Position numbers and translations under genes: made by a program
NCBI GenBank assembly: GCA_017622995.1
Contig: JAGAQA010000029.1
Coordinates: 34,876 to 98,875, forward strand
Origin: Oscillospiraceae bacterium
Lineage (GTDB): Bacteria; Bacillota; Clostridia; Oscillospirales; Oscillospiraceae
Length of the DNA stretch: 64,000 bases
Reading direction: 5' to 3'
Shown here: in pieces, positions 482-7,492 of the stretch
How positions within the stretch are numbered: position 1 is the stretch's first letter
Layout of the letters: every line of letters starts with the position of its first letter
The notes under the pieces: generated by a model
Told to the model about the DNA's origin: nothing
What the model saw: only the letters and a program-made list of their open reading frames with translations
The model's database searches: none

Positions 482-1279
482 TTACTTCGTGCTGATGTCT
501 GCGCCGAAATACTTGTTGGAAAGGGCGCTGAGGGTTCCTTCCGCGCGCAGCTGCTCAATGGCCTGGCTGACGGCCTCCCGCAGGGCGGCGGAGCTTTCGC
601 CCTTCTGCATGGGAATGGCAACCTTGTTGGCCTCTTCCGAGGAGGCTACAATCTTGATCGCCGCGTCCGGGTGCTGGCCCAGGTAATCATAGAAGGATAC
701 ATCCGCATTCAGGGTGGCGTCTGCCCGGCCCTGGAGCACCATCTGAATGGTCTCATCCAGCGTGTCCACGCCGGAACAGGTGGCGCCATAGCTTTCCGCC
801 ATTTCCATATAGGTGCTGCCGATGGAGTTGGCAGTGGTTTTGCCCGCCAGGTCCTCAAAGGAATGGATAGTGTCGTTGTCGTTCTTCACCACCAGGGCGG
901 TGCGGATGTAGGCATAGGGGGTGCTGAAATCATAGGTCTGCTTCCGGGCTTCCGTTACATCCACGCCGTTGATGACCATATCATAGCGGCCGGCTTCCAC
1001 ACCGGCGAGCAGTCCGTCCCATTCGCCCTCAACAAAGGTGGCCTTTACCCCCAGCTTTTGGGCAATGGCCTGGCCCACCTCCACATCGTAGCCCACCAGG
1101 GCATCGCTGTCATCGTGGAAGGACCAGGGAGCCCAGTTGCCCTCCAGGGCGATGACCAGCTCACCTTTTTCCCGGATCTGGGCCAGACGGTCGGAAGAGG
1201 CCTGCTTTTTCCCGCAGGCACACAGTGCCGTAAGGGCCAGGCATACAGCCAGCAGCCCTGCAATTTTCTTTTTCATCAT
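482..1279 (-). CDS. Polar amino-acid ABC transporter, substrate-binding lipoprotein
   Basis: A 265-residue extracytoplasmic binding protein of the SBP_bac_3 family that delivers a polar amino acid (or close analogue) to the adjacent permease. The N-terminus MMKKKIAGLLAVCLALTALC followed by A-C is a lipoprotein signal with lipobox Cys22. The mature part has the family hallmarks: KGELVIALEGNWAPWSF, GYDVEVGQAIAQKLG, and the ligand region GRYDMVINGVDVTEARKQTYDFSTPY. An ATG at 1285 overlaps the stop of the ATPase gene as ATGA but abuts the AAAGGA ribosome site; the ATG at 1279 has a 6-nt spacer and is preferred. It is the last gene of a six-gene operon. The ligand cannot be read from sequence; the upstream esterases and ATP-grasp enzyme suggest a modified amino acid. 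Confidence 0.9.
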   Translation of the reverse strand: MMKKKIAGLLAVCLALTALCACGKKQASSDRLAQIREKGELVIALEGNWAPWSFHDDSDALVGYDVEVGQAIAQKLGVKATFVEGEWDGLLAGVEAGRYDMVINGVDVTEARKQTYDFSTPYAYIRTALVVKNDNDTIHSFEDLAGKTTANSIGSTYMEMAESYGATCSGVDTLDETIQMVLQGRADATLNADVSFYDYLGQHPDAAIKIVASSEEANKVAIPMQKGESSAALREAVSQAIEQLRAEGTLSALSNKYFGADISTK

Positions 1280-1281
1280 GT

Positions 1282-2037
1282 TCATTCCTTTCTCTCCTCG
1301 CCGAGGATGGTTTTCAGGAAGGCACGGGCGCGCTCCTGTTTGGGATTTTGGAAGAAAGCGGTTGGATCACTCTCTTCCACCACAACACCGCCCTCCATGA
1401 ATACCACCTTGGAGGATACATTTTTCGCAAAATTCATTTCGTGGGTTACCACCAGCATGGTCATGCCCTCCTGGGCAAGGGCCCGCATAACCGCCAGCAC
1501 CTCGCCGGTAAGCTCCGGATCCAGGGCGGAGGTGGGTTCATCGAAAAGGATGATTTCCGGGTCCGTGGCCAGAGCCCGGGCAATGGCCACCCGCTGCTGC
1601 TGACCGCCGGAGAGCTGATTGGGATAGGAATCCGCCCGATCGGCCATGCCCACCTTTTGGAGCATCCGCATACCAAGGGCGTTTGCCTGGTCTTTCGGCA
1701 TTTTTCGGCCGATGATCAGCCCTTCCGTCACGTTCTGCAGAGCGGTTTTGTTGCGGAACAGATTGTAGTTCTGAAATACAAAGGCGGTTTTCTTCCGCAG
1801 GGCGCCGATGTCCTTTCTGGTTGCGCCGTGGAGAGGGAACACCTCTCCGTCAAAAATCAGTTCCCCTTCATCCGCGGTTTCCAGAAAGTTGATGCAGCGC
1901 AGGAAGGTGGTTTTTCCGGAACCGCTGGGCCCCAGAATTGCCACCACGTCGCCTTTTTCCACCTCCAGGGACACACTCTTCAGAACTTCCAGCCCGTCAA
2001 AACACTTGCGAAGATTCCTGATTTGCAGCATTGCCAT
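1282..2037 (-). CDS. Polar amino-acid ABC transporter, ATP-binding protein
   Basis: A 251-residue cytoplasmic ATPase that powers amino-acid uptake, GlnQ/HisP type. Walker A is GPSGSGKT (residues 36-43), the Q-loop lies in FVFQNYNLF, the ABC signature is LSGGQQQR (about 143-150), Walker B is ILFDEPTSALD and the switch histidine is in VVTHEMNFA. Length is normal for the family. It starts one base after the permease stop and its own stop overlaps a possible ATG of the binding protein, so the three transporter genes are translated together. Confidence 0.95.
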   Translation of the reverse strand: MAMLQIRNLRKCFDGLEVLKSVSLEVEKGDVVAILGPSGSGKTTFLRCINFLETADEGELIFDGEVFPLHGATRKDIGALRKKTAFVFQNYNLFRNKTALQNVTEGLIIGRKMPKDQANALGMRMLQKVGMADRADSYPNQLSGGQQQRVAIARALATDPEIILFDEPTSALDPELTGEVLAVMRALAQEGMTMLVVTHEMNFAKNVSSKVVFMEGGVVVEESDPTAFFQNPKQERARAFLKTILGEERKE

Positions 2038-2038
2038 G

Positions 2039-2707
2039 TTAATTCGCTCCGTAAGAATTCAGTTTTTTCTCGCCCAGGGCCTGCAGCTTGGTGAGCACGG
2101 TGCAGAACAGCAGGTAAATGAGGGCAACCTCGATATACAGGGCCAGGTGCTCATAGTACCGGGAGGCAATGCGCTGGGTAACCATAAACATTTCCATCAC
2201 CGTAATGTTGGCGGCCAGGGAGGTGTCCTTCACCATGGAAATCAGGTTGTTGGAGAGGGAAGGAAAGGCGGTACGCATTGCCTGGGGGAGAATGATGCGC
2301 CGGATGGTCTGCATATAGGACATACCCACGCAGTACCCCGCTTCCAGCTGTCCTTTTGGTACGGATTCCAGGGCGGCCCGGATGGTTTCGGCACAGTAGG
2401 CCCCCTCGTTGATGGAAAATACCAGCACAGCCGAGGGAAAGGGATCCAGCATGACCCCCAGGTTGGGCAGACCGTAGAAGATCACATACAGCTGCACCAG
2501 CAGGGGCGTACCCCGGACCACCCAGATATAAAACCGGGCGATGCTCTTCAGTACCTTTACGTTTGCGAACTGCACCATGGCTGTAACCACCGCGATGACC
2601 AGCGCCAGTGAAAAGGAAATAACCGTCAGGGGGATGGTCATGGTCAGTCCCGGCAGCAGGATTTTCGGGAAGGAATCCAGCAGGATTCCCAGCAGTCGTT
2701 GATTCAA
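2039..2707 (-). CDS. Polar amino-acid ABC transporter, permease
   Basis: A 222-residue inner-membrane permease of the HisM/GlnP family. Several hydrophobic helices are visible, starting with LPGLTMTIPLTVISFSLALV. The EAA loop that docks on the ATPase is present as VPKGQLEAGYCVGMSYMQTIRRIILPQA. Only one permease gene is present, so the channel is probably a homodimer. It begins 18 bp after the ATP-grasp gene stop and is followed immediately by the ATPase. Confidence 0.93.
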   Translation of the reverse strand: MNQRLLGILLDSFPKILLPGLTMTIPLTVISFSLALVIAVVTAMVQFANVKVLKSIARFYIWVVRGTPLLVQLYVIFYGLPNLGVMLDPFPSAVLVFSINEGAYCAETIRAALESVPKGQLEAGYCVGMSYMQTIRRIILPQAMRTAFPSLSNNLISMVKDTSLAANITVMEMFMVTQRIASRYYEHLALYIEVALIYLLFCTVLTKLQALGEKKLNSYGAN

Positions 2708-2725
2708 AGCAAGCTCCTTTTGGTC

Positions 2726-3916
2726 TTACAGCTGTTCGGCCATATCCCGGTAGAACGCATCCAGTTCTTCCTGGGTATCAAAGTTTGCCACATACATCTG
2801 GTTGGCCATGGCGCCGGACAGGGCATCGGGGATCCGCCCGTTCATGACGATATGGCCTGCGTACTTCATCATGATTTCATAGTCGTCCAGCTTGTAGCGG
2901 TTGCCGTCCCGGCGGCCGTAGAAGGCGCAGAAATGGTGCGCACCCGTAGGCTTGGTGTTGCTGTCGAAGCAGACCATGTCCGCCCAGATCTTATACACGT
3001 CGGTTTCCTGGCTGTAGTTGTACATATCCGGGGTATAGCCGCCGGCAGGACGCATATTCACTTCCAGACCCAGCACATCGCCCTTCTTGCCCAGGCCCTC
3101 CTGATCCTCCGTCAGCACGAAGAATTCCAGATGGATGAACCGGCTCTTGACGCCGAAGGCCTTCACGGTCCGCAGACCGGCAGAGCGAATGTTGTCCGGC
3201 AGATCCTTGACCAGATAATAGACGGAGTCGCTGTTGTTGTTGACAATATCCATAATAGACCGGGGGGAGATGTTGCCGGACTCAAACAGAGGCTGTCCTT
3301 TGGAATCCACAATGGCGTCGTAGGTCTGCACATAGCCCCGGACAAACTCTTCCATGATGTACACGGTATCATCCTTGTGCTCCATAAAGAAGGCCAACTC
3401 CTCGTCGGACTGGAGCTTGTAGGTGTTGTTGGCGCCTACGCCGTTGTCGGGCTTGACCACAACGGGATAGCCCACGGTGTTTGCAAAATCCAGAGCGTCA
3501 TCCATCCCCTCGATCAGGTGATACCGGGCGGTGGGGAGACCTGCCTTGGCGTAGTATTCCTTCATGGCAGACTTATACTTGATTTTGCGCATATCGCAGT
3601 CCTTGGGACCGGTGGTGATGTTGAATTCGGTGCGCAGCCTGGCATCCCGCATGAGCCAGTATTCGTTGTTGGATTCCAGCCAGTCGATCTTGCCGTATTT
3701 GAAGGAGAAGAAGGCCACTGCCTTAAAGACCTCGTCGTAGTTTTCCAGGCTGGATACCTTGTAGTATTCATGAAGGCTGTCCCGCAGCTCCTGCAGCAGG
3801 TTTTCGTAGGGGCAGTCGCCGATGCCCAGAACCCGCATGCCGTTTTTCTTCAGCTCCGCGCAGAATTTCCAGTAGGTCATGGGAAAATTGGGGGAAATAA
3901 AAATAAAGTTTTTCAT
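2726..3916 (-). CDS. ATP-grasp carboxylate-amine ligase family protein
   Basis: A 396-residue cytoplasmic protein with an ATP-grasp fold, which joins a carboxylate to an amine or similar nucleophile through an acyl phosphate. Visible landmarks are the nucleotide-binding strand YPVVVKPDNGVGANNTYKL (about 150-170), the hinge YIMEEFVRGY and the Mg-binding LEVNMRPAGGYTPDMYNYS near residue 300. The N-terminal pre-ATP-grasp region starts FIFISPNFPMTYWKFC. It resembles amino-acid ligases and orphan ATP-grasp proteins often labelled as CPSase-like, but it is far too short to be CPSase and real carB lies elsewhere in this window. It sits between two esterase-fold genes and an amino-acid importer, so a small-molecule or dipeptide-type substrate is likely (inference). 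The substrate is not identifiable. Confidence 0.85.
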   Translation of the reverse strand: MKNFIFISPNFPMTYWKFCAELKKNGMRVLGIGDCPYENLLQELRDSLHEYYKVSSLENYDEVFKAVAFFSFKYGKIDWLESNNEYWLMRDARLRTEFNITTGPKDCDMRKIKYKSAMKEYYAKAGLPTARYHLIEGMDDALDFANTVGYPVVVKPDNGVGANNTYKLQSDEELAFFMEHKDDTVYIMEEFVRGYVQTYDAIVDSKGQPLFESGNISPRSIMDIVNNNSDSVYYLVKDLPDNIRSAGLRTVKAFGVKSRFIHLEFFVLTEDQEGLGKKGDVLGLEVNMRPAGGYTPDMYNYSQETDVYKIWADMVCFDSNTKPTGAHHFCAFYGRRDGNRYKLDDYEIMMKYAGHIVMNGRIPDALSGAMANQMYVANFDTQEELDAFYRDMAEQL

Positions 3917-3949
3917 AAGGAATGTCTCTCTTTCTGTATATTCAGGCTG

Positions 3950-4702
3950 TTATCCCAACAACCAAGGCAGGTAAGTTACCACCATTTTGTGCCACCAGGG
4001 CCAGTCGTGGTTTACGTCATGCCCCCAGTATTCAAACCGGGTGTGGATGCCCTTGCGGCAGCAGACCTCATCCAGCTTCCGGGTGCTTTCCAGCAAAATA
4101 TCCTCCCAGGCGCCCTGGCCCACTACCACCAGAGACTTCTGGCTGTTGTACATATTCATATAGGGATGATCCCAAGGCATATTGTTCAGGTAGAAAACGG
4201 GGCAGTTGTTGTAAACCAGATCGTCGCAGTAGCTGCCGAAGAATTCCTTGTTGTCGTAGAGACCGGAGATGGCGAAGCAGCCGCAGAACAGGTCGGGACG
4301 GCGGTAGTAGAAGTTGGCGGCGTGCATGGCGCCCATGGAGCAGCCAAAGGTGAGGATGCCCTGATCGTACCCGTTGCGCTCCCCGCTCAGATGCCTGATG
4401 TAGGGAACCAGTTCGTCCACAATGTAGTGGAAGTAGCGCTCGTGGTTTTCGATGCGCCAGCGGTTGTCGGCGCCCATGGCGGCCCAGGCCTCGTTGTCGA
4501 TGGAGTCGGCACAGTAAACGGTACACTGGCCGGACTCAATCCAGGGGGACCAGGTGGCGGGCATATTGTTCCCCTCAAAGTCGAAGAAACGGCCGCCCTG
4601 GCAGGGGAAAAACAGAACGGGCTTTCCGTAGGAGCCGTAGACCTTGAATTCCATGTCCCTTCTCAGATTGCTGCTGTAGTGCTTAAAATAACGTACTTCC
4701 AT
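3950..4702 (-). CDS. Esterase-fold alpha/beta hydrolase (second esterase of operon)
   Basis: A 250-residue protein with the putative-esterase (PF00756-like) alpha/beta-hydrolase fold and no signal peptide, so cytoplasmic. The nucleophile elbow is G-C-S-M-G with Ser122; candidate catalytic histidines are His228 or His232 in GHDVNHDWPWW. It is related to but clearly diverged from the esterase encoded just upstream (GSSMGG elbow), so the operon carries two non-identical paralogues. The start at 4702 has AGAGAGG seven bases upstream; an ATG at 4756 would overlap the previous gene and lacks a good site. The substrate is unknown. Family members include S-formylglutathione hydrolase, mycolyltransferases and siderophore esterases; nothing here selects among them. 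Confidence 0.85.
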   Translation of the reverse strand: MEVRYFKHYSSNLRRDMEFKVYGSYGKPVLFFPCQGGRFFDFEGNNMPATWSPWIESGQCTVYCADSIDNEAWAAMGADNRWRIENHERYFHYIVDELVPYIRHLSGERNGYDQGILTFGCSMGAMHAANFYYRRPDLFCGCFAISGLYDNKEFFGSYCDDLVYNNCPVFYLNNMPWDHPYMNMYNSQKSLVVVGQGAWEDILLESTRKLDEVCCRKGIHTRFEYWGHDVNHDWPWWHKMVVTYLPWLLG

Positions 4703-4740
4703 ACGGTTACCTCTCTTTGTAAGATTGAGAAAATAAAAGC

Positions 4741-5496
4741 TTAAACGCCCAGACACTCCATGAAAATCGGCACCTGTCTGGCCCAGGAGGCCTCACAGTG
4801 GGTGCCCTCCGGCACGATCCGGAAGGCCAGATTCACCCGCTTGGTCATCAGCAGGTGGCTGGTGGAGAACAGCGCCTCAGCGTTGGCGACGTGGTTGAAC
4901 ATCTCCTTGGCACCGTAGTCCAGATAGATGCAGGTGTCCCGGCGGATGTGGGCCCGGGCGATGAGCTCCAGCATTTTTCCGGGAGCCACCCACAGGCTGG
5001 GACTCAGACAGGCCGCCCGCTGGAAAACGTGATTAAAGGTGGTGGCGGCATACAGGGCCATGAGCCCGCCCATGCTGGAACCGGCGATGAGGGTGTTGCA
5101 CCGGTCCGGCAGGGTGCGGTAGGTGCTGTCAATATAAGGCTTCAGGTCGTTGATGAGCCAGTGCATATAATGCTTGCCCCGGCCCTTGATTTTTCCAAGC
5201 TCGGAATTTTCAAAGGTGACAGGAGAATATTCCTCCAGCCGGCCGTTGCCCACATAGTTGCACTCGATGCCTACCAGGATCAGCTGCTTGCCGCTCTCAT
5301 CCATATAGTCCTTCATGCCCCAGGAGGTGCCGTAGGTGGCGTCCTCGTCGAAAAATATATTGTGTCCGTCGAACAGATACATAACGGGGTAGCGCTTTTC
5401 GGGCTCCTGGGTGTAGCTTTCCGGCAGGTAAACATAGGCTCTGCGAACCTGGTCTCCGGAGAGCTGTGGAATGGTAATGTCCCATTTGATGACCAT
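4741..5496 (-). CDS. Esterase-fold alpha/beta hydrolase (first gene of operon)
   Basis: A 251-residue cytoplasmic hydrolase of the esterase D/Fes-like group. It has the typical start (AYVYLPESY then YPVMYLFDGHNIFFD), the nucleophile elbow G-S-S-M-G with Ser141, a possible acid at Asp193 in YLDYG and the catalytic His233 in GTHCEASW. It is the promoter-proximal gene of the six-gene operon, 38 bp ahead of the second esterase. The ribosome site AAGGAAGT lies 6 bases before the ATG. The resemblance to enterochelin-esterase-like proteins is at fold level only; no siderophore synthesis genes are nearby. Confidence 0.87.
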   Translation of the reverse strand: MVIKWDITIPQLSGDQVRRAYVYLPESYTQEPEKRYPVMYLFDGHNIFFDEDATYGTSWGMKDYMDESGKQLILVGIECNYVGNGRLEEYSPVTFENSELGKIKGRGKHYMHWLINDLKPYIDSTYRTLPDRCNTLIAGSSMGGLMALYAATTFNHVFQRAACLSPSLWVAPGKMLELIARAHIRRDTCIYLDYGAKEMFNHVANAEALFSTSHLLMTKRVNLAFRIVPEGTHCEASWARQVPIFMECLGV

Positions 5497-5556
5497 GAAA
5501 ATACTTCCTTCGTTCCTTGTAAAATATGGCAGTTTTTACCGCTTACTTAATATATC

Positions 5557-5585
5557 AGTATACGGGAAACCCCCGGCTTTGTCAA
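5557..5585 (-). promoter_or_regulatory. Sigma-A promoter of the esterase/ATP-grasp/ABC operon
   Basis: On the minus strand a consensus -35 TTGACA (5585-5580) is followed after exactly 17 bases by TATACT (5562-5557). Predicted transcription starts about 55 bp before the first esterase ATG. The -35 box lies inside the terminator hairpin of the preceding gene. Confidence 0.85.
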
Positions 5586-5597
5586 GAAAGCCGGGGG
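5570..5597 (-). terminator. Hairpin downstream of the PHP gene, overlapping the next promoter
   Basis: A perfect 11-bp stem (CCCCCGGCTTT at 5570-5580 and its complement at 5587-5597) with a 6-base loop, followed on the minus strand by a short TTT. It lies 71 bp past the PHP gene stop. Its loop and inner stem contain the TTGACA of the next operon. Confidence 0.65.
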
Positions 5598-5667
5598 AAA
5601 TCTGTAGCCTCAGCAAAAGCAAACGAACACCAGGGGTGTACAAATTGTGCAGGACATACAATTGCCG

Positions 5668-6456
5668 CTATTTGATTTTGTGAAAGATGGGCTGGCGGTC
5701 CTGGAAGGTACACACATAGCCGAAAATATCGCCCAGCAGCTTTTCCGCGGTATCACAGTACTGTCCCACCCGTTCACATCTGTGGGCATCGGAGCCCACG
5801 GTGACGATTTCACCGCCCAGCTCCTGGAACCGGCGGAAAAAGTCGATGGTTGGCAGGAAGCCCACACTGCGGTCTACGCCGCTGGTGTTCATTTCCAGTC
5901 CCTTGTCCTTGGCGGCCAGGGTTTTGAGAATTTCATCCAGCACCTCCCGGTGGGCGGCGTATTCCAGAGGAGACCGGGTGGGATTAAAGGGGGACTTCAT
6001 CAGAAAGGTCAGGTGGGCCAGAACATCAAAATCCTCATGGGTCTGTACCCGTTTCAGGGTTTCCTCCAGAAATTCCCGCTGGGCATCCCCGGGGATTTTT
6101 CCCTGCCAGTATTCCTTGAAGTAGACATCCAGGCCATGAACAAAGTGAACGCTGCCCAGTACAAAGTCATAGTGCCGCTGGCTGAGCTTTTGCAGGAGCA
6201 GGGATTGATTGTTCTCCAAAAGACCGAACTCCATGCCCCGGCGGATTTTCAGCCCGGGAACCTCCAGATGGTCGTATTCCTGATTGTAGCGGTTCACATC
6301 AAACATCATGGTCTGGCTTACGGCCAGAGGATCAAAATCCACGTGGTCCGTAAAGCAGATTTCCGTCAGCCCCTGCTTTGCGGCGGCATTGGCCAGCTCC
6401 AGGCCGCTGTCGTGACCGTCAAAGGATACGACGGAGTGAATATGATAGTCAAACAT
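5668..6456 (-). CDS. PHP-domain phosphatase, histidinol-phosphatase (HisJ) family
   Basis: A 262-residue metal-dependent phosphoesterase of the PHP superfamily. Motif I is DYHIHSVVSFDGHD near the N-terminus, then CFTDHVDFD, the central H in LGSVHFVHG, DVLAHLTFL and the C-terminal VTVGSDAHRCERVGQYCD. These are the metal-ligand histidines and aspartates of HisJ/HisK-type L-histidinol phosphatases. No other his genes are here, so a general phosphatase role is equally possible. The start overlaps the 3' end of mutY by 8 bp, which implies coupled translation. Confidence 0.88.
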   Translation of the reverse strand: MFDYHIHSVVSFDGHDSGLELANAAAKQGLTEICFTDHVDFDPLAVSQTMMFDVNRYNQEYDHLEVPGLKIRRGMEFGLLENNQSLLLQKLSQRHYDFVLGSVHFVHGLDVYFKEYWQGKIPGDAQREFLEETLKRVQTHEDFDVLAHLTFLMKSPFNPTRSPLEYAAHREVLDEILKTLAAKDKGLEMNTSGVDRSVGFLPTIDFFRRFQELGGEIVTVGSDAHRCERVGQYCDTAEKLLGDIFGYVCTFQDRQPIFHKIK

Positions 6457-7492
6457 GGCGTTCCTCCTCCCAGAACTGGCGGAAGGCGGTGGGCAGAGCA
6501 GCGGATTGCTCCAGCTCCTCCGGTGTCAGCCAGACGAACCGGGAATCCTTCCGGCTGACCTCCAGGAACACGCCTTCCATTTCCCAGATGATGTGGGTGA
6601 AAATATGCTTCCGATGAATGATTTTTTTCAGCTCAGTGGGTTCTACGCCCCATTCTTCCGCCTGCCGGAGGGCATCTCCCTGTTCCAGCCTGCCGGGGAC
6701 ATTGGGAAATTCCCACAGTCCTGCCAGCAGTCCCGTATCCCCCCGCTTGCCCAGGGCATAGGCGCCCTGACAGCGGAAGATGAAAACGGTTTTTTCCTCC
6801 CGGCGTTTCTCTTTTTTCGCTTTCTTCACAGGAAGCGTCTGGGCAGTACCCCTCCGGAAACCCAGACAGAACCCGCTGCAGGGACACAGGCCGCATTCCG
6901 GGGGCCGGTTGGGGCCGCACAGCGTGGCGCCCAGCTCCATCAGCGCCTGGGTAAAGGTGCCTGCTTCCCCGGGATAAACCGCGGCAAGCATATTGGTTAC
7001 CTTTTCCTTGGTCCCGGGAGCGTCAATGGGCGTGGGATCATCGGTCAGCCGGGAAACAAGCCGCAGCACATTGCCGTCCACCGCCGGCGTGGGGCTGTCA
7101 AAGGCAATGGAGCAGATGGCTCCGGCCGTGTAGGGACCAATGCCGGGAAGAGACAGGCAGACGCTGTGCTCCCGGGGGAAAACCCCGCCGTATTCCGACA
7201 CAATCACCTGGGCGGCTTTTTTCAGATTCCGGACCCGGCTGTAATAGCCCAATCCCTCCCAGAGCTTGTGAAGGGCATCGTCGTCACACCGGGCAAGGTC
7301 CGCAATGGTGGGAAGGGCGGACAGAAAACGGGCATAGTAGCCCTTTACGGCCTCAACCCGGGTCTGCTGCAGCATGATCTCCGATACCCAGATCCGGTAG
7401 GGGTCCTTTGTGTGCCGCCAGGGCAGATCCCGGGCGCAGCTGCGGTACCACTGGGGCAGCGTATCCGGAAGCTGGGAAAGGATGGCGTCCAT
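6449..7492 (-). CDS. mutY: A/G-specific adenine glycosylase
   Basis: A 347-residue base-excision repair enzyme that removes adenine mispaired with 8-oxoguanine. The N-terminal domain has SEIMLQQTRVE with catalytic Glu38, then a helix-hairpin-helix LPGIGPYTAGAICSIAF and the catalytic Asp in AVDGNVLRL. The [4Fe-4S] cysteines follow as C-x7-C-x2-C-x5-C (CGPNRPPECGLCPCSGFC), the seven-residue first gap being a Firmicute variant. The C-terminal NUDIX-like domain that recognises 8-oxoG is present. The ribosome site GGAGGAG precedes the ATG. Confidence 0.96.
   Translation of the reverse strand: MDAILSQLPDTLPQWYRSCARDLPWRHTKDPYRIWVSEIMLQQTRVEAVKGYYARFLSALPTIADLARCDDDALHKLWEGLGYYSRVRNLKKAAQVIVSEYGGVFPREHSVCLSLPGIGPYTAGAICSIAFDSPTPAVDGNVLRLVSRLTDDPTPIDAPGTKEKVTNMLAAVYPGEAGTFTQALMELGATLCGPNRPPECGLCPCSGFCLGFRRGTAQTLPVKKAKKEKRREEKTVFIFRCQGAYALGKRGDTGLLAGLWEFPNVPGRLEQGDALRQAEEWGVEPTELKKIIHRKHIFTHIIWEMEGVFLEVSRKDSRFVWLTPEELEQSAALPTAFRQFWEEERHV

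Follow-up and report, generated by a model that had tools for sequence, protein, structure and literature searches.

A recurrent gene trio of two esterases and an ATP-grasp ligase in Clostridia: a candidate mobile cassette for acyl-group chemistry

Six genes on the minus strand

The stretch analysed here, called the window, is 64,000 nucleotides of an Oscillospiraceae bacterium (GenBank assembly GCA_017622995.1, contig JAGAQA010000029.1, positions 34,876 to 98,875), and our subject is a run of six minus-strand genes, the first three of which, encoding two esterases and an ATP-grasp ligase, recur as a set in Clostridia. The run begins with est1 (5496-4741), encoding an alpha/beta-hydrolase of Pfam family Esterase (PF00756), and est2 (4702-3950, with the start taken at ATG 4702; the mechanical open reading frame, or ORF, opens at GTG 4756), encoding a divergent hydrolase of the same family and the partner of the gene that follows, which specifies the 396-residue ATP-grasp ligase (3916-2726). 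Next come the permease (2707-2039, TTG start, BPD_transp_1), the ATPase (2037-1282, ABC_tran) and the family 3 solute-binding lipoprotein (SBP; 1285-482, SBP_bac_3) of a cystine-type ABC importer, all three outside the conserved cassette. From est1 to SBP, the intergenic gaps measure 38, 33, 18 and 1 bp, followed by a 4-bp overlap. A sigma-70-like promoter, TTGACA-17-TATACT, stands ahead of est1 on the minus strand (5585-5557; 11 of 12 consensus matches, as a pattern match only), and a minus-strand hairpin with a 20-bp stem 3' of the SBP stop codon (407-450, z-score -9.5) is the probable bidirectional terminator closing the operon. Values of dN/dS of about 0.07-0.17 for all six genes, each compared with one close relative (L001 or L002; the ligase with both), reflect purifying selection and indicate that the six ORFs are maintained genes rather than chance ones. 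A sequence-only reading of this DNA had described the six genes, their gaps, residues Ser141 and Ser122 in the esterases, a LEVNMRPAGG loop in the ligase and the near-consensus promoter, all of which ORF calls, Pfam searches and pattern matching bear out; the co-expression it proposed is in keeping with likely co-transcription here, with one strand, short gaps, a promoter and an end hairpin.

Both hydrolases score above the 22-bit cut-off of PF00756, est1 with 95.1 bits and est2 with 33.5, and belong to that family. The est1 residues Ser141, Glu198 and His233 are invariant in 85 of 85 distinct full-length copies, and Ser122, Glu200 and His232 of est2 in 101 of 101 distinct full copies, a count that excludes two partial ones (L052 and L105). 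By match, est1 resembles esterase 8z91, ferulic acid esterases and BES/IroE-like (enterochelin-type) hydrolases; est2 has a single weak match among solved structures (PDB 5vol, E 4.6e-4) and none in NCBIfam. Signal peptides, judged by eye, were seen in none of est1, est2 and the ligase, as the sequence-only reading had held. The two hydrolases differ from known PF00756 esterases of the CE1/ferulic acid and enterochelin/bacillibactin types in this respect and in being tied genetically to an ATP-grasp gene.

The ligase passes only one of five ATP-grasp Pfam models, PF02786, with 24.4 bits against a cut-off of 19.8, while ATP-grasp_4 was matched by 27 of 28 ligase members at E <= 1e-3; a profile match together with conserved Lys, Glu and Asn at metal and nucleotide positions places the protein in the ATP-grasp superfamily. 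Among 120 distinct full-length copies, K115, K155, E285, N287 and R289 are invariant, while E189 and R259 are each present in 118 and E190 in 116; the metal loop LEVNMRPAGG occupies residues 284-293. Catalytic residues in ligase and esterases have their roles assigned from family knowledge, for the ligase from ATP-grasp chemistry. The window's ligase is 62-67% identical to those of the remoter loci in the alignment. Its best solved match by sequence is a distant one to an L-amino acid ligase (PDB 4wd3, which we take to be RizA; residues 24-291, E 3.4e-10), nearly tied with a PurD-type purine-pathway ligase (E 4.3e-10), and no NCBIfam ligase model among those shown came near its cut-off. In contrast to known carboxylate-amine ATP-grasp ligases, this one has a partner hydrolase in most carriers. 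No description of an esterase or est2 paired with an ATP-grasp enzyme was found in the literature searched, and none of a pathway with this gene set, in line with the sequence-only reading, although such a search does not prove absence in print.

Conservation, spread and partners of the enzyme genes

A scan of one genome per species returned 555 stretches with a relative of the ligase, and the best 80 were kept as loci. Profiles of the three enzymes found the order est1-est2-ATP-grasp in 75 of these 80 Clostridia loci, 74 plainly and one (L052) with est2 in two pieces. The other five comprise one locus without est1 (L028), one without est2 (L056), one in which only the ligase is present (L063) and two whose ends lie too near the genes for a decision (L001 and L016). 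Spacing is tight, with median gaps of 39 bp between est1 and est2 and 58 bp between est2 and the ligase, and gaps of at most 300 bp at 74 and 69, respectively, of the 75 loci. The flanks, in contrast, vary: 38 unrelated contexts were counted upstream among 74 loci (largest group 10) and 40 downstream among the 68 of 80 loci with at least 1.2 kb beyond the ligase (largest group 17). In the wider set of 101 loci, four of which are repeats (L115, L116, L118 and L119 carry the ligase, est1 and est2 of L006, L019, L008 and L030), the commonest family among the two called genes on either side occurs at 11 loci, and called genes on the same strand that fall within the module or no more than 160 bp from it number just 37. 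That the order of the trio is kept while its surroundings change argues for a self-contained cassette.

The importer shows a different distribution. Among the 80 loci, 68 of which reach at least 1.2 kb beyond the ligase, it lies 3' of that gene in only one, L001 (Pseudoflavonifractor sp. MSJ-30), the closest sister, with a ligase 89% identical. In the window's genus, 3 of 25 genomes have the SBP (E <= 1e-40), and two have both ligase and SBP, namely the window's own and G506, where the two genes lie on different contigs and other genes follow the ligase. Since gene calls in some GC-rich loci (L115 and L117, for example) are unreliable, the absence of the importer was also assessed by tblastn over 126 stretches: besides the window, relatives of the permease or SBP turned up only in L001, in L013, in L113 (the G506 contig that carries the SBP), in L114 (from G488, in which no ligase was found) and in L139 (an SBP match at 22%). 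Thus the ordered six-gene set named in the sequence-only reading survives only in its enzyme part. The best-scoring NCBIfam models for the three subunits are those of the L-cystine importers TcyJ, TcyL and TcyN, with 176.8, 224.7 and 307.6 bits against equivalog cut-offs of 312, 300 and 406 (PRK11260, PRK15100 and PRK11264), so that the system appears cystine-like by best score while falling short of being filed as a cystine importer. The best solved match of the SBP is 2yln, presumably the gonococcal cystine receptor (E 8e-53), which aligns over residues 27-266 with no large gaps. We regard the importer as an independent uptake system of the cystine type that moved in behind the cassette and, owing to a recent rearrangement, probably shares its transcript in the window.

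Beyond the closest relatives, est2 is the usual companion. In a phylum-wide sample the ligase occurs in 10 of 299 genomes, the window's own included; est2 adjoins it in all ten, in either order and at one locus (L105) as two overlapping frames, and est1 is found in three. A class-wide sample of 196 genomes yielded three with the ligase and two with est2, both among the ligase carriers. The ligase is present in 21 of 148 genomes of family f29 and, sometimes as fragments, in 75 of 189 of family f35, for both of which est2 adjacency was read in the extracted loci only. The est2 and ATP-grasp pair is the older core of the cassette. Within the window's genus the ligase was found in 15 of 25 genomes, and in 7 of the 10 that are at least 90% complete; such patchiness within one genus points to an accessory, mobile trait. 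Four plasmid records cover at least 80% of the ligase. In three of them (Peptoclostridium acidaminophilum, Sinorhizobium sp. RAC02 and Pararhizobium qamdonense) the next gene 3' of the ligase is est2; the fourth (Massilia litorea) shows no est2, and genes for an aminotransferase and a methyltransferase precede its ligase. Trees of ligase and est2 agree in their main groups and differ in finer branches (L037, for example); both join Sinorhizobium and Pararhizobium with the same two f29 Bacillota genomes (support 100/100 and 99/97), while one very divergent row (G292) is placed unsafely. The agreement suggests that the pair moved between phyla as a unit, and the cassette would accordingly be horizontally mobile.

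The most distinctive variation concerns genus g381 of family f35, where the ligase is linked to an HD-GYP protein in 10 of 11 genomes. A full-length ligase-HD-GYP fusion of about 795 residues occurs in seven genomes, and a separate HD-GYP gene directly behind a stand-alone ligase likewise in seven; in G796 it lies about 2 kb away. The link was read directly in L120-L127, L138 and L139 and otherwise counted from search rows. In six fused copies the C-terminal half carries HHER(G/C)DGSGYP, and the five scanned match HD_5 at E 1e-22 to 4e-26. This motif is shared with HD-GYP proteins of the c-di-GMP phosphodiesterase type, from which the fused copies differ in their attachment to an ATP-grasp ligase. 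Among the matches listed for 189 f35 genomes, copies of this HD-GYP protein at 61% identity or more are confined to g381; the family as a whole has many remoter HD-GYP relatives, and no HD-GYP motif was seen in its other extracted loci (L100-L104, L128-L130 and L135). The six fused ligases keep the main catalytic residues and share W87F and G126H, found in none of the other distinct copies (120 in total). N84 or E85 is altered as well in four of the six, G161 in L124 and G292 in L120 and L124, as if these enzymes had been retuned to another ligand. No description of such a fusion was found in the literature searched, where the sole paper found to mention ATP-grasp, HD-GYP and a fusion together concerns jumbo phages. 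By eye, two fusions lie near flagellar-looking genes, CsrA/FliW-like in L120 and flagellin-like in L121. A second possible signalling partner occurs at L048, where a 950-residue PAS hybrid histidine kinase with two receiver domains (3128-5980) sits between est2 and the ligase. Since the HD-GYP link and this kinase are lineage-specific, they give only a hint of second-messenger signalling. Genes with GGDEF motifs stand near the module in the window, L047, L057 and perhaps L041, of 121 loci, a count that leaves out frames antisense to the module; a general GGDEF link, seen near so few loci, was rejected.

Proposed function and its alternatives

With moderate confidence, we propose that the functional unit is a self-contained mobile est1-est2-ATP-grasp cassette, with est2 and the ligase at its core, in which ligase and esterases act on one acyl group. 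The ATP-grasp enzyme would activate a carboxylic acid as the acyl phosphate and join it to an amine or other nucleophile, while the esterases, sharing the cytosol with the ligase, would act on esters of that same acid or on similar acyl linkages. In the likeliest detailed version, est1 and est2 would each free the acid from a different ester and the ligase would then conjugate it. That these genes form a unit and that their products are partners is well supported; ligase activity is predicted from intact family chemistry. Such a conserved ligase, paired with an esterase and found patchily in rhizobia as well as in gut Clostridia and other Bacillota, marks a metabolic step that the papers searched do not seem to cover, and with so few genes the cassette could be tested directly in a heterologous host.

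Several points weigh against this proposal. The 80 loci, being the best of 555, are biased toward close relatives, and many assemblies in the window's genus are incomplete, so that some of the patchiness could be apparent only. Some ligase copies have no est1 or est2 match beside them (L063, L086, L128, the fused L120-L125 and the short fecal contigs L141 and L142), and G691, the source of L128, yielded no est2 at E <= 1e-10. The pairing of esterase and ligase is thus strong, not absolute. At position 189, the two distant copies L134 and L086 have Gln, and L134 also has Ser259. Among solved structures the L-amino acid ligase is just marginally nearer than a purine-pathway enzyme, and the activities of ligase and esterases are predicted from sequence. 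The step in which the esterases supply the acid to the ligase is a guess as to direction, with more chance of failing than of holding. Copies with est1 and without est2 also occur (L056, L109 and L111). The genome of L109, G449, encodes a further ligase at another site, L110, where est2 is present. That either esterase alone can accompany the ligase is as expected if the two have similar roles. At L111 a third alpha/beta hydrolase (Hydrolase_4) adjoins est1.

In the main rival reading, the ligase would build an amide or ester conjugate and the esterases would cleave that same conjugate, the operon thereby controlling how much of a small molecule, perhaps a signal, is present. In most carriers the ligase gene does lie close to a hydrolase gene, and the HD-GYP domain of g381 and the hybrid histidine kinase of L048 could be its signalling partners. 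Against it, running both directions at once would be wasteful without regulation, the HD-GYP link was seen in a single genus among the matches listed and the kinase at a single locus, and GGDEF genes stand near few loci; we consider this reading rather unlikely. An extended form of the signalling idea, which we regard as improbable, is that the est2 and ATP-grasp pair makes and controls an undescribed small conjugate that serves members of at least two phyla (Bacillota and Pseudomonadota) as a signal or regulator inside the cell. In one genus this pathway would have been coupled to cyclic-di-nucleotide signalling when an HD-GYP phosphodiesterase was recruited, duplicated and fused to the ligase. 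The fusion does at least provide a concrete hypothesis tying the product to second messengers.

Two further readings give the genes other substrates or other partners. The sequence-only reading had joined all six into a pathway of ABC import of an amino-acid conjugate, cytoplasmic hydrolysis and re-ligation. The shared strand, the 18-bp gap between ligase and permease with no minus-strand terminator listed in it, and the same arrangement in L001 speak for it, as do amino-acid-type ABC genes near the module at L013 (a divergent set, 34-43% identical, on the opposite strand and ending about 2.4 kb upstream of est1) and L022 (a partial ATPase gene of 58% identity, about 1.3 kb beyond the ligase and likewise on the other strand). 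Yet the importer follows the ligase in one of the 80 loci, its relatives are few among the 126 stretches, and its best scores are against cystine importers, so that nothing points to import of a conjugate. We rejected this pathway as highly improbable since the importer is not conserved with the enzymes; what stands of it is the functional partnership of esterases and ATP-grasp enzyme. Peptide modification is very doubtful as well. ATP-grasp ligases ligate peptides in graspetide clusters, and the window's enzyme might modify a peptide or protein in the same manner, with the esterases trimming the product. A survey limited to ORFs of at least 70 codons found no recurrent neighbour of at least 70 residues, and the 38- and 33-bp gaps in the window are too small for a precursor gene between the three enzyme genes.

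Flanking features and minor observations

The operon of the window seems to begin where the preceding unit ends. An 11-bp GC-rich minus-strand hairpin 3' of a PHP gene (5570-5597, energy z-score -3.8) is probably the terminator of that gene, and its loop contains five of the six bases of the operon's -35 box; terminator and promoter appear to use the same bases. The PHP gene and a MutY-like gene lie upstream on the minus strand (5668-7492), and by tblastn 9 of the 80 loci have both of them next to the cassette, a lineage-specific site.

A scan of 20 loci at gathering scores showed no riboswitch or T-box ahead of the module. Matches in those 20 loci were to tRNA genes (L037 and L060; elsewhere in L042, L101 and L105) and a 5S rRNA (L101). 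In the window, RNA-family matches at E <= 1 are to implausible families, far below their cut-offs. The tRNA genes at L037 (7221-7291) and L060 (7288-7361) lie about 100 bp 3' of the ligase and mark a possible insertion site.

Anti-phage defence was considered and rejected, as no PADLOC-DB model matched est1, est2 or the ligase at E <= 0.01. Carriage by phages was also set aside, since no relative was found in viral contigs; three records labelled as phage are short unverified fecal contigs, among whose called genes no phage gene was recognised by eye. Thiamine genes (L110), a lipoate ligase (L108 and L112) and a DAHP synthase (L083), some named by eye, occur beside the module in one or two cases each and were treated as chance.

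Two loci have est2 as overlapping frames or pieces beside an intact ligase (L105, 6194-6938; L052, 5180-5929), either a broken gene or an assembly error. At L087-L089 (Rhizobium and Thiodictyon), est2 relatives of 29-33% identity have no ligase match within 12.7 kb, and in the two Rhizobium records the relative adjoins what by eye seems a second, acetyl-xylan-type esterase gene. On the Massilia plasmid (L086, 5875-9176), an ATP-grasp gene 31% identical to the ligase follows a class III aminotransferase and an S-adenosylmethionine (SAM)-dependent methyltransferase, possibly a biosynthetic cluster. An FMN riboswitch lies about 3 kb 3' of the ligase at L044. At the start of the window, plus-strand positions 1-293 encode the C-terminus of a diguanylate cyclase-type (GGDEF) protein, whose gene converges on the importer operon, and a longer frame is found at L136 (2611-3669).

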